NCBI GenBank assembly: GCA_030765065.1
Contig: CM060975.1
Location: 163,838,993 to 163,902,992, forward strand
Origin: Deroplatys truncata
Taxonomy: Eukaryota; Arthropoda; Insecta; Mantodea; Mantidae
DNA: 64,000 bases
Direction of reading: 5' to 3'
Translations under genes and position numbers: made by a program
Part shown: positions 7,344 to 63,893 of the stretch, piece by piece
Layout: every line of letters begins with the position of its first letter
Numbering within the stretch: the stretch's first letter is position 1
The notes under the pieces: generated by a model
What the model saw: the letters and a program-made list of their open reading frames with translations, nothing else
Told to the model about the DNA's origin: nothing
Databases searched by the model: none

Positions 7344-8653
7344 CGAGGGTTGGAACTTAAATAGTGCCAACTATTTACAGCCAATACAAAAGAGTTACAT
7401 GTTAGCAACCTTTACTGCCCTTCAATGTAGTCACCAGCGTTGTGTATAACCCGTTGCTAGCGATGTAAAAGTCGTAGTATACCTTTAGCAGAGCCTATTC
7501 TGTTGATAGTGGAATGGAGCGGTATACTGCCTGACGAATCTCTGGAACAGTTCTGAAGCGAATGTCACAAAGTGCTTCCTTCATCTTCGGAATCAAATCA
7601 AAGTCACAAGGACTTAAGTTCGGGGAGTATGGTGGATGGTACAGCACTTCCCAGCCCCATCGACCTAACAAATCAGCCAGAGCTTGCGCTGTATGCGCCC
7701 GAGCATTGTCGTGCAAAATGATGGGCGGATTCTGCAGGAAGTGTTGCCGCTTCTTTTTCACAGCTGGTCCAGGTGGTGCTCCAAAAACGAACGGTAATAC
7801 TGCGCATTGACAGTCTGCCGTGGAGGAATGCAATGCGTTAGGATAACACCATCACAGACATACACGAGAATCACCATAACTTTCACATTGCTGGGGTTCT
7901 GAGGAACTTTCGATTTTCGTGGCGACCCATAATGATGCCATTCATTCGATTGGTGTTTCAGTTTTGGCTCATACGATTTGGCCCATGTCTCATCCAGCGT
8001 TATGATATGGCGTAAGAAAGCCTCCCCTTCACGCTCATAGTGGTCCAAGTGCGTCCTAGCAGCGTCGTAACGCAACCATTTCTGCATTTCCGTAAAATTA
8101 TGCGGAACCCATCGTGATGCAATTTTTCGCATGCCCAGGCGTTCCTTCAGGATGTGAAGCATAGTCGTATGCGCTAATCCGGATTCTTGGGCGAGCTCAC
8201 GAATCGTCTGGCTTCGATCACTGTCCAGCATCGCGGCAGGAGCATGCACTTCTTCTTCACTGATGCTAGGACCACCTGCCCGATGCATGTCTGCCACACT
8301 TTGCCGACCATCGTTGAAGGCTTTTACCCAACGTGCTAATGTTCTGTAAGGCAATGCAGATTCCGCGCAAGCCTCTTAAAGACCTTGATGACACTGTCGT
8401 GCAGTACGACCTCTGGCACATTCAATCTTTATCCTACTCCGTTGTTCCTATTTCGAAAACATCGTGACAACACTACCTTAGACCGCTAGCTCACAAGTGA
8501 CTCTGTTTCTCTCGACTGTGCGCACGAAGGGAGAGTCCATTTGCTCTGAGGTAAGGTAGGTGTGTGACTAACGTGTGCTATCAGCGACAATATTAGATTC
8601 CGTTGCATAGCGTCTCTACAGCAGTGTTGGCACTATTTAAGTTCCAACCCTCG
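7344..8653 (-). mobile_element. Complete-length mariner (Tc1/mariner) element, transposase dead
   Basis: Terminal inverted repeats are perfect over 28 bases: 7344-7371 begins CGAGGGTTGGAACTTAAATA, and 8626-8653 is its exact reverse complement. TA target-site duplications flank them at 7342-7343 and 8654-8655. The 1310-bp length is typical. The interior carries a degenerate DD34D transposase read on the minus strand. Because both ends are intact, this copy could in principle still be a substrate for a related transposase supplied elsewhere, but it cannot make its own. Confidence 0.95.
7412..8462 (-). pseudogene. Mariner transposase pseudogene (DD34D)
   Basis: The reading begins MFSK at 8462 and ends GDYIEGQ with a stop at 7412-7414; the length of about 350 codons is normal for mariner. 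Recognisable parts are the N-terminal helix-turn-helix region (LPYRTLARWVKAF), a second DNA-binding helix set (IRELAQESGLAHTTMLHILK), then the catalytic triad: D in TLDETW, D in ILHDNARAH and D in SPCDFDL. Exactly 34 residues separate the last two, so this is mariner proper rather than Tc1 (DD34E). It is broken by stops within the first ~30 codons (after MFSK and after HQGL), a frameshift between the first and second aspartates (about 7760-7780), a further frameshift near 7500-7510 and a stop in the last 20 codons. All three catalytic aspartates survive, so decay looks neutral and recent. Confidence 0.9.
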
Positions 8654-10904: not shown

Positions 10905-12167
10905 TCAATTAATTTGTGTCATTATAACAATGTATGTTGTGGATGCCCCAATGATGGAGCATAGTAGGGCGGAATTTACTTTGAAGACTCCTGCGGCACT
11001 AAATTCAAACTTAGTGTCTCGAATCTGTTGAGAAAACGCTTGGAGCTCCCGAAGCACTTTCTGGTCCTCATTTAACCTCAGACTCAATCGCTGAACGATT
11101 GTTGATGTTTGAAGAGCTTCACTGGTCGCTAACTGAGCAGAAACGGACACACACAGAAATTTTATTAGGTGCAATATCACGATAGATGCTGTGCTGAGAC
11201 ATTTATTCAGCTGAAATATATTATTTTCAGCTGTCAGAAGCCAAAATGTAGCAAACACATAAATTACAAATGCAAAGAAGCTCTCTGCAATGTCAACAAG
11301 CATTAAGAGCCCGTACATCGAATTTAGGGTTTCCCCTGCATCAAATAATGTTCCATAAATTTCGCGGTAACATCGAATTCTCAGGTAATTTGTCAAAGGC
11401 CAAGTACTGTAGATGTTGGGCGATACTCTGATTTTCTGAAAGTTAGAATGTTTTCTTAGAAGTAGCCCGGCGTCAGAAACAATGCTGATGCTGTCTAAGA
11501 ATTCCTCTTGGTCAAGATGATAATTCAAGATAGCAAAGCGGTGCTTCAGAATAAGTTGAAAGGTAATGAAGTGCGAATTAATGATACCATTAATCATTAC
11601 AACTGGAACAATTGAGAGCACCCACTGCCATTGCATTACATCATTCCAAGCGTATGCTACATAAATAAGAGCAGCAATACAGTATGTCAACTTCAAAGAA
11701 AGTTCCATAACCAGTAATGCTTTGGTATTTCTGTAAGTCCGCTGCAAGTGTCCACTCAACAATATAGAATCCAGAGCTGATATTTTGTTTATTAGTCTTA
11801 CCATACGTTGCCAGTGCTTGAATGAGAGCACAAGCATAGAAATCAGGGTTCCACAGCAGGTAGTTACAATTGCGATTATATGTGCCGTGTGAAGATTTCT
11901 GTTCAAACTTCGAAGTAATTTCCAGCGTGCATTGTCCCCCACTGCATGTGAGAACACGAAAACAGAGAGCGAAGCAAATACGAATACCGTCCAACCTGAG
12001 CTCCTTATAGCGACAGCTTCAGAAGCATTTATTTTCCGGAGTTTGTAGGGTGCTAATCCTGCTATTCTGGAGACAATGTATAATGGTTTTATTGAAGCAC
12101 AAAAGTCCAGGCGCACAGTCCCAGCATCTGCTTTGGACCACGCGTATTGAGGTTTAGGTAATATCAT
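10905..12167 (-). CDS. Gustatory receptor family protein (7-transmembrane chemoreceptor)
   Basis: The open frame runs without introns to a TGA at 10905-10907. The C-terminus reads TTYIVIMTQIN, matching the TYxxxxxQ signature of transmembrane segment 7 in insect gustatory receptors; just before it, FSAAGVFKVNSALL fits the family pattern (acGfF.vn..ll). About seven hydrophobic segments are visible, the last three around FFAFVIYVFATFWLL, IVILHLIKFLCVSV and LLCSIIGASTTYIVI. The frame is open up to Met at 12395 (496 aa), but I prefer Met at 12167 (420 aa). The usual N-terminal family motif, here IKPLYIVSRIAGLAPY, then starts about 26 residues in, and 420 aa is a normal family length; the extra 76 residues look unconserved. 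Family knowledge: these are ligand-gated cation channels in the membrane of taste neurons, with an intracellular N-terminus. The ligand cannot be read from sequence. Decayed relatives lie just downstream on the same strand. Confidence 0.85.
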   Translation of the reverse strand: MILPKPQYAWSKADAGTVRLDFCASIKPLYIVSRIAGLAPYKLRKINASEAVAIRSSGWTVFVFASLSVFVFSHAVGDNARWKLLRSLNRNLHTAHIIAIVTTCCGTLISMLVLSFKHWQRMVRLINKISALDSILLSGHLQRTYRNTKALLVMELSLKLTYCIAALIYVAYAWNDVMQWQWVLSIVPVVMINGIINSHFITFQLILKHRFAILNYHLDQEEFLDSISIVSDAGLLLRKHSNFQKIRVSPNIYSTWPLTNYLRIRCYREIYGTLFDAGETLNSMYGLLMLVDIAESFFAFVIYVFATFWLLTAENNIFQLNKCLSTASIVILHLIKFLCVSVSAQLATSEALQTSTIVQRLSLRLNEDQKVLRELQAFSQQIRDTKFEFSAAGVFKVNSALLCSIIGASTTYIVIMTQIN

Positions 12168-12395
12168 GTTATAATAATGTACTTCGGACTTTATAGGTTT
12201 TATATGGAGGTTTACGTTGAAGTTTCTCAGAGTTCCTTCAACACTTTGGTAATACCAACGGATTACTGCGGAACTGTTTGTATGTCGATTAGATTCATTT
12301 ACAACCCTGAAAATCAATATCCTACACTCGATGCTTAACTCACAGCAGTTATTGTCTATTCTTTCTTTGAATGATAGAAGGTAAAAATGATACAT

Positions 12396-13566
12396 GGATT
12401 ACATACATGCAAAAATGAAATTACAGTATTGTTACGAGAAGTAAGTGCACACTGACGAAATGATATATTCCAGTAGTGTGGTTAAAATGGAGTATGTAGC
12501 ATTTTTGTTACAACAACCTATAATTTTCCGTATTGGATATGCGACTGGTGGAAGAATTACATAGTCATCTAGCTTTATATGGTTATATTCACATTTTATT
12601 TTAGAAATTTCTCTTTGTGGAGTGCTGTCACACGATATCTGTATGAAGCTTTTGAAGTAAACAATTCATTAATTATGATCTTAAGAAGACGTGCGCGTAT
12701 TTTTAACACTGGTCAAACGTAAAAGTTATACTAAAACCAAAATTCGTATTTAAGTAACTCATATAAAATGTTTACAAGGCGAAACATTTAGAGGATTCCT
12801 TCCAACTCAACGAATCCTTAGCTTTGAAAATAATTCTATAAGCAATTTACACAAAAATCTCCTTAAAATTTGTTTAAAGAATATAAATTATGGGTTATGG
12901 GCGGTAAAATAAAACGTAGGATATATCTGTAAACTGACTGCATAAACCTCCCCATTTTGATTGTTTTATCTGAATATTTCTACTCGCCTTAACTCAAGAT
13001 GATATTTTGACTTACATTTTTCTCGGGCAGTTAAACAATAAAAGATGAAAGTTATTTACAGAGTACATGGAAAAACTGAACCGGAAAATGGTGAAAAGTG
13101 ATTAGATAAAAAGGCAAAAATATATGACAGTGATGTAATTAGGTTTAAATTTATGCTTCCAAATATTTTAATTAACTTAGCCACATAGGAGAGGAAAATA
13201 GAAGCGGTGCATAGAACTAAGTGGATGTCCAGATGTTTATGTGATGATGTGCTTGATTGTCAAGGGGATGCTACACTGGTGGCAAATAAGAAATTAATTC
13301 AGTTTTAGAAGGTAGCTAGCTGTGCATTTAGCCGGGTTTCAGATGGCATATTAAAACCCAGTTTTATTGCATAGTTACTTAATACTGTGTTACAACACTG
13401 TTGTATCTCAGAACTTCACTTCGAAAAAGCAAATCCATTCGATTTTCATGTGTTGATATAAATTAATTTTAATGTACATGCTTAAACTGCCTTTGGTAGT
13501 CCTGGCATTTTTGCTGCCACTTTTGAAGGTAACCACGTTCTTTCTTCACCAACGAACGGATGTATT
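12396..13566. other. Region upstream of the gustatory receptor
   Basis: AT-rich, with no recognised gene or clear core promoter; a receptor promoter would lie at its left edge. Confidence 0.4.
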
Positions 13567-14214: not shown

Positions 14215-15060
14215 GATATTACATTCACATAACTTTCTCTACCCAATTTCGTTCAGTTTTACATAGCTTTTACAAACTCTTCTTACAAAGGATTATTTTT
14301 CTATCTACTTCATGTTAATCGAGGTATTGCTTGCAGAAGTAATTTCATTACACATTTCGTTGTAGGTACAAAGGGAATAGAGCAAGTTGAATGTATAGTC
14401 AATGTTTAAAGGTATATGCTGGCCTTAGATTTCCATACTTTTTCCATGACATCGCGAGAAACAACTGAATAGCGAGAGCACTTCAAAAATTACAAAAGTA
14501 TTGAAAATTACAAACCAATAGTAACGGATATCTTGGAAATGCTTGATGCCAAAAAGAGTTATTGGAAATAAGTTGTGTGCTTTAAAGAGTTTGCGCATTT
14601 TTCGCGTAGTATACTGTTTTACCTGTTCCTTAACATTTACTAACTATACACAAAATATACAAAACAGAACTTCAAACCCTACTTCCAGAAAACTCAAGAC
14701 GTAATTATATTTGTCATGTAAATATCTGAAATATACGTTTTTTAATAAAAACTCATCGGTTCATTTAAAAAAATGAAATATTTCGAAACTTTTCCATGTA
14801 AAGGTTGGTTTGGGATGGACAGGTTTTCTTGAAAATGTTTGCATCGTATCCTTGGAGCATATTTAACTCAAATACCAACTTTTGCAGCTATTTGACTTTT
14901 CGTTTTCGAGTTATGTTGTTTACACAAATAAGGATTTTTTCTAAACATGCTTTTTCGGATTCAGGAGACCTCAAAACAGTACTTCCGTAGAATATTGAGA
15001 TCGAATTTTAGGATGGAATGCAATACCTTCTCTACCTATTATCAGAGAAAGTAATAAGCT
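14215..15060 (+). repeat. Family A repeat, complete (~846 bp)
   Basis: Head ACATTCACATAACTTTCTCT at 14221; the 3' end is GGAATGCAATACCTTCTCTA then CCTATTATCAGAGAAAGTAA. Its 3' part is reused in the direct and inverted copies described at 14572-17231. Confidence 0.8.
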
Positions 15061-15222
15061 TTCTTAAGAATATTTTTTATATTCACTAATAAACGATTGA
15101 TGGAAGAGAAAGTCATGTCAATGTAACACATCAGATTTTTTGAATGTAAAAAGGAATTATAACATCTTATTGAAGATGATGCAGAAAATTAGTCAAAACA
15201 TTTCTGCGCATTCATGCATTAT
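14572..15222 (+). repeat. 650-bp direct repeat, copy 1
   Basis: It matches 16582-17231 with one substitution (T for G at about 14605) and one single-base length difference (AAAA versus AAA at about 14653), as seen by eye. The part from 14757 onward is also the left inverted arm. Near identity implies very recent duplication or an assembly artefact. Confidence 0.9.
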
Positions 15223-15720
15223 GCAATAGCAAATATTTGTTTTTACTTCACGCGTTGCCATCTTGTGACGTCATTCATTTGTTTGGTTTGTAGCTCCATC
15301 TGGCGTAGCAATTTGCATCAGTTTTGAAATAATTCACTTTAAATGTCCTCCAGCTAGCTCTTTGGGTCGAACATGTATCTCTTACAGGTTGTGAAGCGGA
15401 AAGGAATCTTTTATCCAGAAATTATACTGATGAAGAAAATTTGTTTATAATTTTTATTGCCGAACACGTTCACAAACACTTTTACATATTGATTTAGATA
15501 CTCGCCAAACTGAAACTGTTTGTAATAACTTCTTACTTATCACTTTTAACTCGCGTACTTCAACTTTGTGTAAATTTAACTGTATAATATTTTAGATCTT
15601 TAATGATTTTTGCTGCGCGTAACTTGACGAACTGAAGGACTGACTGACGGCGTGTAGTGTACACGAAATTTTGATGAACTGAGGCGACCGACGTGTAAGG
15701 TATTGAGAATTTTGTTGAAC
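15223..15720 (-). ncRNA. A-rich leader-like sequence downstream of the heat-shock-type promoter
   Basis: The minus strand from the predicted start runs about 500 bases to the inverted arm. It is A-rich and G/U-poor in its middle (for example AAAGTGATAAGTAAGAAG), like the long unstructured 5' leaders of insect hsp70 mRNAs. The first ATG (near 15490) is followed at once by TAA; later ATGs open frames of at most about 15 codons, and no MxxxAxGIDLGTT Hsp70 start is present. Either the promoter has been cut from its gene, or it makes a noncoding heat-shock transcript. A palindromic CRE-like TGACGTCA lies at 15266-15273. Confidence 0.3.
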
Positions 15721-15892
15721 TGTGGGAGATCTACCACGGACTCGACTTTATATACTCCCACTCCTCGACATGCCTAAAGATTATAAATGAACTACTATTG
15801 GCTAATAAAACGCGCCAACATTAGCGTCTATTTTAATATCCAATGAAAACCACGAATACATATTGCTTTTAGGGAAACATTCCAGAAGTTTC
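15721..15892 (-). promoter_or_regulatory. Heat-shock-type promoter (HSE, CCAAT, TATA, initiator)
   Basis: Read on the minus strand, a heat-shock element with three contiguous, correctly phased units lies at 15880-15892 (plus-strand TTCCAGAAGTTTC; a fourth unit at 15875-15877 is imperfect). A CCAAT box follows at 15801-15797, TATATAAA at 15755-15748 and an ACAGTTCAAC initiator at about 15721, 34 bases past the first T of the TATA box. This order and spacing are those of insect hsp70-type promoters. GAAGTTAC/TGTTC half-sites further upstream (about 15905-15930) may add a weaker element. Downstream is an A-rich leader without an Hsp70 frame. Elements are seen; heat inducibility is inferred. Confidence 0.6.
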
Positions 15893-16581
15893 TACCGAAA
15901 ACGCGCGAACATTACGTAACTTCCTGGTTCCCAATAACGATAAACAACTCACCCCCTCGCTGCATTATTGCGCTATTATTGACAGTTTCAGTAAAGCCGT
16001 ATATTATTATTTACCAATATTAATTACAATTAATAAACATCTGAAATCAATGTCACATAAAAAATACATATTCATATTACAATCATTATTTACATTTAAA
16101 TAATTTGTGATACAAAAATGCATGAATGCGCAGAAATGTTTTGACTAATTTTCTGCATCATCTTCAATAAGATGTTATAATTCCTTTTTACATTCAAAAA
16201 ATCTGATGTGTTACATTGACATGACTTTCTCTTCCATCAATCATTTATTAGTGAATATAAAAAATATTCTTAAGAAAGCTTATTACTTTCTCTGATAATA
16301 GGTAGAGAAGGTATTGCATTCCATCCTAAAATTCGATCTCAATATTCTACGGAAGTACTGTTTTGAGGTCTCCTGAATCCGAAAAAGCATGTTTAGAAAA
16401 AATCCTTATTTGTGTAAACAACATAACTCGAAAACGAAAAGTCGAATAGCTGCAAAAGTTGGTATTTGAGTTAAATATGCTCCAAGGATACGATGCAAAC
16501 ATTTTCAAGAAAACCTGTCCATCCCAAACCAACCTTTACATGGAAAAGTTTCGAAATATTTCATTTTTTTAAATGAACCGT

Positions 16582-17231
16582 GTTGTGTGCTTTAAAGAGT
16601 TTGCGCATTTTTCGCGTAGTATACGGTTTTACCTGTTCCTTAACATTTACTAACTATACACAAATATACAAAACAGAACTTCAAACCCTACTTCCAGAAA
16701 ACTCAAGACGTAATTATATTTGTCATGTAAATATCTGAAATATACGTTTTTTAATAAAAACTCATCGGTTCATTTAAAAAAATGAAATATTTCGAAACTT
16801 TTCCATGTAAAGGTTGGTTTGGGATGGACAGGTTTTCTTGAAAATGTTTGCATCGTATCCTTGGAGCATATTTAACTCAAATACCAACTTTTGCAGCTAT
16901 TTGACTTTTCGTTTTCGAGTTATGTTGTTTACACAAATAAGGATTTTTTCTAAACATGCTTTTTCGGATTCAGGAGACCTCAAAACAGTACTTCCGTAGA
17001 ATATTGAGATCGAATTTTAGGATGGAATGCAATACCTTCTCTACCTATTATCAGAGAAAGTAATAAGCTTTCTTAAGAATATTTTTTATATTCACTAATA
17101 AACGATTGATGGAAGAGAAAGTCATGTCAATGTAACACATCAGATTTTTTGAATGTAAAAAGGAATTATAACATCTTATTGAAGATGATGCAGAAAATTA
17201 GTCAAAACATTTCTGCGCATTCATGCATTAT
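16582..17231 (+). repeat. 650-bp direct repeat, copy 2
   Basis: Begins GTTGTGTGCTTTAAAGAG directly against the outer end of the inverted arm (16580) and is nearly identical to 14572-15222. Sequence diverges from copy 1 right after the shared CATGCATTAT. Confidence 0.9.
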
Positions 17232-60900: not shown

Positions 60901-63893
60901 CAAGATTCATGTGAAACAAACGTAAAAGCTCGCTAAAACTAAAGTCGGTGAACTGCGAGCTGCAATTAGGATTCTTATTCTCTGGCCATTTTGGATCCTT
61001 CTCAGGAAAGCTGCGACCTCATTCCTGCCTACCAGAGCATATTATACCAGAAGGCTACGAGGTTCGGGATCGCCACATCTCCGTTAAGTAATGTTGTTCA
61101 GTTCCATTCCTACTTTCCTCGCGTACCTACCAGAAATATTCCTACACGCCTCATCATGCAGTGATGGAGTCCAGTAGCACCACCAAACTGAGAATAGTGT
61201 TCACTGCATCACTAAAAACTACATTCTTACTTTCGCTGAACGACCTGATGATGATTGGACCAACTGTGCAGAAGGACCTATTTTCTATTGTTCTCCTATT
61301 CCGCACGTACAAACATGCGCTGACAGTGGGCATTGAGAAGATGTACAGACAAATCCTAATGCACGAAGCTGACTGAGATTTGCAGAGAATTCTGTGGCGT
61401 AGAACTCCCAACGAGTCACTTAAATTGTACTGGTTAACGACGGTCTCATACGCAACTTCGGCAGCTCCATTTGTGGCTACTCGTTGCTTAATGCAGGTAC
61501 AATTGACAATGTCCATTTGCGTCTCGGCGCAGTTGAGGTCTTGAAACGAGATTTTTATGTCGATGACTTGACTGAAACTGACACGGTAGAAGATGCTATT
61601 GAACTATGTAAAACGTTGGTGTCAATTCTCAAAACAGCAGGGTTTCCCTTAAGAAAATGGTTTCTAACAAATTTTGAGCACCATACCAGCAAAGCTTTGT
61701 AAAGGTGACACGCTATGGAGTGTTACCTTTGAAGACGTCGCGGTAAAGGCTCTTCCCTTGAATTGGCGTACTGGGAGCGACTTATTAGAGTTCACTGCGT
61801 CTGATACCAAGCTAGGCAATTCTAGGTGGACGAAAAGGACTGTGCTTTCTAAAGTCGCCTCTATATACGATTCCTTGTGTTTGCTGAGCCCTGTGATTGT
61901 AGAATGCAAACTCTTCATTCAAAGTCTTTGGCAAGAACACTTGGGCTGGGACGAATTGCTTAACACTAGGTTGGAAGTACAATGGAAGCAGCTTCCTGGA
62001 TACCTCCCTGAATAAACGATATCCATATTTCTCGAAGAGTAGCTGTCACCGAAGAGAGTATCTCCATGGAACTTCTGGATTTTCAGGTGCATCTGAAAGA
62101 TCATATGAAGCCTGTGTATATATGCGTTGCGCGAGAACAGATGGAAATATCACCATGCTCTGCTCTCCTATAAGCCTAGATTTGCACCACTGAAGCAATT
62201 ACTCCTGCTAAGATTGAAGTTGAATGATGCCGTTCTGTTTAGTCGGCGGACGGAGTAGGTATGTAACGCTTTGAACTTAAACATCACTCGGCAATACTAC
62301 TGGACAGATTCAACAATAGTGCTAGCCAGGATTGTTGGTTCTTCTTCGTCCTCGAAGACTTAAGTGGCAAACATGGTTGCAGAAATTCATCGCGTTAGGT
62401 TCAAGGGATATGGAGACACGTACTGTCACAAGAAAACCCTACTGATCTAATATCCAGGGAAACACACCCACAAGGACTACAATAGTCGGCTATGGTGGGC
62501 GGGTCGGCCCCGACTAGCTCACTCAAGACAGCTCTACGTGGCCATCAATAAAGGGACCAATTATCTGTACAGCGACATTGATGAACAAAGGGGAGCAAGG
62601 ATCTGTTTGCTCAATACCCATGTAGAACTAGAGCAGATTTGAAGCAAATTTTCCAAGTGGTCTACACTTCAGCGAGTCGTTGCCTACATACTAAGATTTA
62701 GCTACACTTCAAGACATCAATCAACAACTACATATCGTGAAACGCTGAACTAGGCGGAGCTCAGTCACTCTCTATGCACTACAGTTCGCTCCGTGCAACA
62801 GTCAGCGTACCCTGAGGAGTTTCAGGCCCTCCTGCATGGGAGGTCACTTCACTCTGAAAGCAAGTTGCTGCGCTTAAACCCCTTTCTCAACGGTAATAAC
62901 CTGTTGAGGATGGGTGGGAGGCTACAAAATATTGTTGCACCATTTGCTCAGAAACACCCTATGATATCGTCTCCTGCACATCATGTGATCAAACTGCATA
63001 TATGGCACGAACACACACGCCTGATGCACGCTGGGAGTCAACTTCTATTGGCTTCGTTACGGCAGCGATTTTGGCTGACAAATGGCCAATCTGTTATTCG
63101 GGAAGTGATAAATAAATGCGTTACCTGTTTCAGGATGAAAGCTAGTGCAACCAATCAAGTTATGGGACAGTTGCCCTCGTCCGGGGTCAATGAAAGCAAT
63201 CCATTTTCTCACTGTGGCACATAAAACAAGGTAATCTCCGAAGCAAGGTGCAGAGAAAGTGCTACATATCGCTTTTCGTTTGCATGGTAACCAAGGCTAA
63301 GCACATTGAGTTGGTCAACGACTTGACCAATGAAGCTTTCATTGCTGCTTCGCGGCGCTTTATCTCCAGACGCGGGATCTGCTCTCATATGCACAGTGAC
63401 AACGGCACATGCTTCATAGGTGCAAGGAACAAGTTAAACGAGCTGGCCTGTTTGCTCCATTCCCAGAAACAAGGCAATAGCGTAGGAATACACCTTCGCA
63501 GCGCAACAAGGAATACAATAGCACTTTATTCCTCCTCACTTTGGCGGGTTATGGTAAGCTAGGAATAAGTTGGTGAAGAGCCATTTGGCGAAAATAGTTG
63601 GTAATAATACTCTCACCTTTGAAGAGAGATGAAATTATTAACACAATTTGAGGCATGCTTAAATTCCCGTCCCATTATTCCTCTTCTTCCTCTCACGTGG
63701 CCAATTGGAATTGTTGAACAGACGCATCCCGGGAGTGACGGTTAGTTCGGATACTGACAGTACGCATTGCAAAGGGTACCTAAAAGCGACCCGTTGCAAA
63801 AGTTTGCCCTTTCACCGAGAATTATGTTTAAGAATTCTTGCTCGAGACTCAATGCAAATTTTCATAATTTCTGACACAAATTAGGTGGGCGGT

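Follow-up and report, generated by a model that had tools for sequence, protein, structure and literature searches.

Activation of LTR retrotransposons by heat is familiar mainly from plants. The gypsy/Ty3 element Cer1 of C. elegans reportedly, by the title of a paper (PMC3315495), shows temperature-dependent expression, and there is said to be older work on copia and heat shock in Drosophila. Among the titles and abstract beginnings that we covered, a range outside which most subscription journals fall, no animal LTR element with a promoter driven by a heat-shock element (HSE) was found. Heat activation has been demonstrated for ONSEN (ATCOPIA78), a Ty1/copia element of Arabidopsis with eight copies in Col-0, according to the available parts of the reports (PMC3907296; PMC8376061). 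Helitrons of Caenorhabditis carry HSEs; their occupancy by HSF-1 has been shown, as has the induction of nearby genes by heat (PMC6927752). The sequence analysed here indicates that a gypsy-type family in an animal has multiplied through young subfamilies that carry HSEs.

The locus lies in a 64,000-nucleotide stretch of the genome of the mantis Deroplatys truncata (contig CM060975.1; the window, whose positions are used below). By its sequence, the core at 15222-16116 (minus strand) is the LTR (U3-R-U5), of solo type, of a Ty3/gypsy-type retrotransposon. With 15223-16116 as query, the animal's own assembly (818 contigs, 4.29 Gb) yielded 40 scored copies out of 4,593 first-look candidates; their identity is 95-97%, save for the window LTR itself at 100%. 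Twenty of these rows formed 10 same-strand pairs, seven spaced 3.0-3.4 kb and three 7.5-7.8 kb apart, with 93-100% identity between the LTRs of a pair; the window LTR is 95-97% identical to the paired LTRs. In the 10 pairs the LTR started with TGATACGGTAATTT or a one-base variant and ended in CA wherever the end could be placed, as TG..CA termini. Identical 4-bp target duplications flanked nine pairs, L009 being without one. The purine tract AGTGGGGCATA preceded the 3′ LTR in all 10, and all had a primer-binding site (PBS) after the 5′ LTR (TGGCGCCCAACGTGGGGC in L009 and L018, variants in the others), which we take to be that of Lys-tRNA.

The coding content was read in L009. A 683-residue gag-like frame, whose Pfam matches are all below threshold, is followed by a protease/reverse transcriptase frame and an RNase H/integrase frame. 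In the three frames of this one element, RVT_1, RNase H, Integrase_H2C2 and rve were found in the order PR-RT-RH-INT, the protease matches sitting just under the curated cut-offs, and we assign the element to the Ty3/gypsy type because this domain order matches that of Ty3/gypsy elements. As to an env after pol, such as errantiviruses and retrovirus-like elements have, no plus-strand frame of at least 80 residues was found between 7666 of L009 and its 3′ LTR at 8340. All eight of the ~3-kb elements compared with L009 share internal breakpoints at 1421 and at ~1690 to ~5850; a further breakpoint lies at 1052 in six of them (L012, L014, L015, L016, L018 and L034) and at 1137 in L013 and L017. 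These common breakpoints indicate that the ~3-kb elements are a non-autonomous derivative, which was presumably moved in trans. The ~3-kb elements (L012-L018, L034) retain part of gag and, among the matches listed, ~3-kb spacings outnumber 7.5-kb spacings (7 of 10 window-type pairs and 17 of 20 L-type pairs). The family was recently active, since the two LTRs are 100% identical in two pairs (L011 and L015). Of note, the LTRs of L009-L018 (~0.9 to 1.1 kb) fall into U5 length classes set apart by the PBS-like units GCAAATTGGCTCCACAACGTGGGGC that the LTR has taken in, as though its end had shifted repeatedly to a downstream primer-binding site.

The window copy lacks the first 11 bp, at 16116, and its 3′ end GCTATTGCA at 15222 is followed by TAAT. 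It is hosted by dispersed-repeat DNA outside the element, A+ copy 1 (14572-15221, plus strand). On the other side, an inverted copy of this flank, A- (16117-16580, minus strand), is fused to the truncated 5′ end of the LTR, and A+ copy 2 (16582-17231, plus strand) contains the empty site GGTTGATAATGCATG, with TAAT at 17230-17227. Insertion occurred at TAAT, because A+ copy 2 shows the empty site; the target duplication of the window LTR would derive from this site, its upstream copy having been lost. The 464-bp arms (14757-15220 and 16117-16580) are 99.6% identical and, as annotated initially, repeat-derived. The third arm copy, 16582-17231, is direct, not inverted, and the A copies are 99.6-99.7% identical. 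The arms have ~70% relatives elsewhere in the window; they are repeat DNA and no part of the element. The A+/A-/A+ arms are best explained by a solo-type LTR, inserted at TAAT, around which the DNA was later rearranged locally or was duplicated in the assembly.

With the usual motif definitions of HSE, CCAAT box, TATA box and initiator, the minus-strand elements listed in the initial annotation were all read at the places given there. The HSE AGAAACTTCTGGAATGTTTC spans 15893-15874 and includes, at 15892-15880, three perfect units (GAA-AC-TTC-TG-GAA). An inverted CCAAT box (ATTGG) at 15844-15840 is invariant across 41 aligned W-type rows, a CCAAT box at 15801-15797 has one variant among them, and the TATA box TATATAAA at 15754-15747 (LTR positions 364-371) has none, its first T included. 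Judging by spacing, transcription would start at the beginning of R, in the CAGTT initiator (15722-15721, with A at 15721) ~32 bases after the start of the TATA box. Relative to this presumed start, the HSE is at -170 (about -165), ATTGG at -122, CCAAT at -79 and TATATAAA at -32. R extends from ~15722 to slightly past an AATAAA poly(A) signal, read at 15458-15453 on the same strand, and U5 ends at 15222. Two palindromes were also read on this strand: a perfect one in U5, TGACGTCA (15266-15273), which is conserved in the LTR alignment and which we take to be CRE-like, and TTACGTAA (15912-15919) in U3, directly upstream of the HSE, presumably bZIP-like. The A-rich leader of ~500 bases downstream of the initiator was likewise present. 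This R-U5 leader has a folding z of +1.66, 96 of 100 shuffles folding at least equally well; its slightly weaker structure is in keeping with stress-tolerant translation and is no proof of it. We considered and rejected a gene whose first exon is noncoding, with a splice donor (CCT/GTAAGA near 15385): the stretch lies inside the LTR, past the poly(A) signal, in aligned copies. The predicted stress-type RNA polymerase II promoter does sit within repeats, and minus-strand RNA from it would head toward family A sequence, as had been stated.

Perfect three-unit HSEs number two in the 64-kb window, where 200 shuffles give an expectation of 0.88 (P 0.225); the HSE-plus-TATA arrangement occurs once, against 0.3 in shuffles. 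These window statistics alone are insufficient; what places the HSE beyond chance is that it occupies the same position in many LTR copies. The W-type set comprises 41 rows from 30 loci; it excludes the L031 rows, L047_138 and the partial L035_3396, and the LTR alignment mentioned above omits one 319-bp row (L039), treated below as its own type. None of the nine unit sites of the HSE varies in these rows and three of the four spacer sites do (minor counts 18, 4, 0 and 20), which gives p 0.004 in a permutation of unit versus spacer sites; with shared variants only and one LTR per locus (n = 30), p lay between 0.002 and 0.02 according to the threshold chosen. This support is moderate, because 75 of 381 nine-site placements in U3 are also invariant; three of the 381, the HSE included, are equally extreme.

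Comparison between subfamilies provided stronger evidence for maintenance of the HSE than the unit-versus-spacer test. A perfect HSE was found in 30 of 30 W-type loci and in 17 of 20 L-type pairs (one LTR read per pair), with 0.0044 expected per ~300-bp stretch. The L-type was found via LTR similarity, independently of the HSE, and is 74% identical to the window LTR (L047), 77.5% in U3; the 40 copies listed are all paired, giving 20 LTR pairs, and in 15 of these the two LTRs score equally against the query, a further sign of recent activity. The L-type HSE reads as a perfect TTC-GAA-TTC in the 17 pairs, and its middle unit is changed in L078, L089 and L090. In nearly all L-type copies read, the upstream GAA has been lost and a one-base deletion puts a downstream TTC in register. 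The same register switch was seen in L124, L130 and L131, and the upstream register is kept in the W-type, in L092 and in the V-type (L113, L120 and kin). The V-type has the HSE in all 20 copies read, of 40 listed at 99-100% identity; since it was the HSE that led to L092, L113-L131 and the V-type, its presence there is no evidence, and it is their spacers and register that are informative. The HSE/CCAAT/TATA array is retained in the alignments across the W-/L-type divergence, and the HSE looks maintained in both subfamilies. The intact fraction of dead copies was dropped as a proof of selection, since copies decay neutrally after insertion.

The older sister group, the S-type, differs in this respect. 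None of 21 copies read (20 of 40 listed, plus L031) has a perfect HSE, and none of 22 if the L039-type copy is added; the one HSE among two L039 rows belongs to the W-type row, which was counted under both types. The S-type is 91.8% identical within the group, with longer terminal branches and no pairs among the listed loci; the L039-type listing contains one pair in 40 rows. The conservation in related copies on which the initial annotation had staked its reading is therefore found in the W-type and breaks down in the S-type. The HSE is dispensable for spread, because this older group multiplied without it, and it may either mark the young part of the family or have been lost in the S-type.

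At the genome scale, a strict pattern for the W-type HSE gave 4,029 exact matches (0 for the reversed-pattern control) and the 13-base W-type left anchor 4,225 occurrences (45 for the control), so that ~96% of anchored copies retain the HSE. The strict L-type pattern gave 4,325 exact matches (control 0), which makes 8,354 exact HSE-bearing matches for the two types together. The bare pattern TTCNNGAANNTTC, a perfect three-unit HSE, occurs 212,615 times, versus 77,295 for the reversed control (2.75-fold, an excess of ~135,000). Of the first 40 HSE places on contig C1, 14 are in LTRs of the family (35%, 95% interval 21-52%); another 11 are in dispersed A-like repeats, which have matches across the motif and carry TTCAAGAAAATTC and similar sequences. 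This sample is non-random, with strict W and L patterns at 4 of 40 places versus 3.9% genome-wide. Because these patterns are overrepresented in it, the true proportion in LTRs may lie closer to 14% than to 35%, and we regard the sample as a lead rather than an estimate. It is conceivable, if doubtful, that the LTR superfamily is the largest single supplier of perfect HSEs in this giant insect genome, renewed by register switching. If so, the genome-wide HSF response of the animal would largely be a retrotransposon response, with HSF titration or rewiring of neighbouring genes at thousands of sites.

We consider it likely that the core is a Ty3/gypsy-type LTR whose U3 carries a candidate HSF-responsive, ONSEN-like heat-inducible promoter, and the retrotransposon is probably activated under heat stress of the animal. 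Under heat or proteotoxic stress, trimers of host HSF would bind the U3 HSE ~165 bases upstream of the start, and RNA polymerase II would initiate near 15721 (CAGTT). Full-length elements would then give genomic RNA and mobilise themselves and, in trans, the ~3-kb derivatives, and solo LTRs such as the window copy would give a short RNA ending at AATAAA within R, or read-through. Many transcripts may be expected to stop within R at the LTR's own AATAAA. Read-through from the window LTR would cross the A repeat toward a chemoreceptor frame 2.8 kb past the LTR end. Reverse transcription and integration would then disperse the promoter. The chemoreceptor frame, a long single frame downstream on the same strand (10905-12398, minus strand; 7tm_7, E 2e-33), could be a recipient of such read-through. 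Elsewhere in the window, a fragment at 7758-8375 (minus strand) matches Transposase_1 (mariner type), and fragments at 61668-62012 and 62754-63224 (plus strand) match Peptidase_A17 (Pao) and Integrase_H2C2.

We considered the possibility that the mosaic around the window LTR is an assembly artefact, LTR-less and LTR-bearing haplotypes having both been retained, with a palindromic read chimera in addition. This may quite possibly be so: A+ copy 2 resembles an empty site, the A copies are nearly identical, and L034 and L035 likewise hold near-identical inverted LTR pieces. The latter (L034 1934-2714/5151-4372; L035 2514-3396/5182-4300) are 99.2-99.8% identical and of the same palindromic type as the window LTR. 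Yet the 1-base insert and the 11-base loss from the LTR at the junctions equally suit template-switch repair, and genuine A+/A-/A+ structures exist. Far less credible is the proposal of the initial annotation that an hsp70 promoter was captured by, or isolated within, an inverted-repeat structure, or that the locus is an hsr-omega-like noncoding heat-shock gene; we hold this to be highly improbable. The motif kinds are shared with hsp70 promoters, and the A-rich leader is slightly less structured than its shuffles, but the arms are flanking repeat DNA and the core belongs to an LTR family with thousands of dispersed copies, whereas an hsr-omega-type gene is a single conserved locus. As annotated, no Hsp70 frame follows the promoter: the 22 frames in the window that reach 110 residues include none, and the genome-wide Hsp70 search listed none on contig C1. 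That search gave 59 stretches, among which the promoters of four intact, near-full-length, single-frame genes (L019-L022) and of a fifth, broken one (L023) were examined. Of the four intact promoters, three contain an HSE of three perfect units and that of L020 contains two units; like the LTR, hsp70 promoters have CCAAT boxes, with a TATA box near the HSE in two of four. L019 and L021 have the order CCAAT-CCAAT-HSE-TATA and a distance of 40 bases from the HSE to the TATA box downstream of it (start to start), as opposed to HSE-ATTGG-CCAAT-TATA and 138 bases in the LTR; the claimed "hsp70-like order and spacing" is thus borne out in part only. BLAST of the LTR against L019-L022 with ~1.5-kb flanks gave no significant match (best E 0.13), and capture of an hsp70 promoter was rejected for lack of significant homology to these intact loci, Hsp70 loci being the hsp genes compared. 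The suggested search for copies of the core joined to hsp70 returned one significant match among Hsp70 loci, L030, which is an S-type LTR near a broken hsp70. This LTR (L031 2990-3790; C4:204458989-204459789) lies ~0.55 kb upstream of the frame-broken hsp70, in an hsp70 cluster, and is oriented away from it.

Alternatively, the LTR could be as described and its HSE not serve heat, being a relic or used by HSF constitutively or in development (e.g. in the germ line), with the CCAAT, TATA, CRE-like and bZIP-like sites as main drivers. The HSE-free S-type speaks for this, having yielded 3,444 first-look candidates, some of them of another type, and 40 scored copies, and having kept CCAAT and TATA in nearly all copies read, as does the occurrence of the CRE-like and TTACGTAA palindromes in the same LTR. 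Several observations count against the heat-inducible LTR promoter: the lost unit base in 3 of 20 L-type copies, an HSE farther from TATA than in host hsp70 genes, its frequency within chance for a window-sized stretch, and the multiplication of the HSE-free sister group. However, the units stay intact while the spacers change, and a lost unit has been replaced in register, and we therefore think it unlikely that the HSE has no role in heat. If the LTR is indeed heat-inducible, it offers a natural system for testing heat-driven genome growth and any rewiring or titration of the heat-shock response by dispersed LTR promoters.

These properties make the family a candidate, though unproven, member of the heat-responsive LTR elements. 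With Cer1 it has in common, going by the title of the report, that both are animal gypsy-type elements. The likeness to ONSEN, as far as the available parts of those reports go (PMC3907296; PMC8376061), is that the host stress response drives transcription, which in the present LTR is proposed from sequence. An ONSEN-like HSE with several perfect units, lying in U3 ahead of the TATA box and the start, was found in 30 of 30 W-type loci, 17 of 20 L-type pairs and 0 of 21 S-type copies. In contrast to ONSEN, the present element is of the Ty3/gypsy type and from an insect, and has thousands of HSE-bearing LTRs, non-autonomous riders and an HSE register switch, as read from its copies. With the Caenorhabditis Helitrons, as described in the accessible part of the report (PMC6927752), it shares the spreading of HSEs across an animal genome by a transposon family; unlike in those DNA transposons, the HSE, where HSF binding is predicted, belongs here to the element's own LTR promoter.
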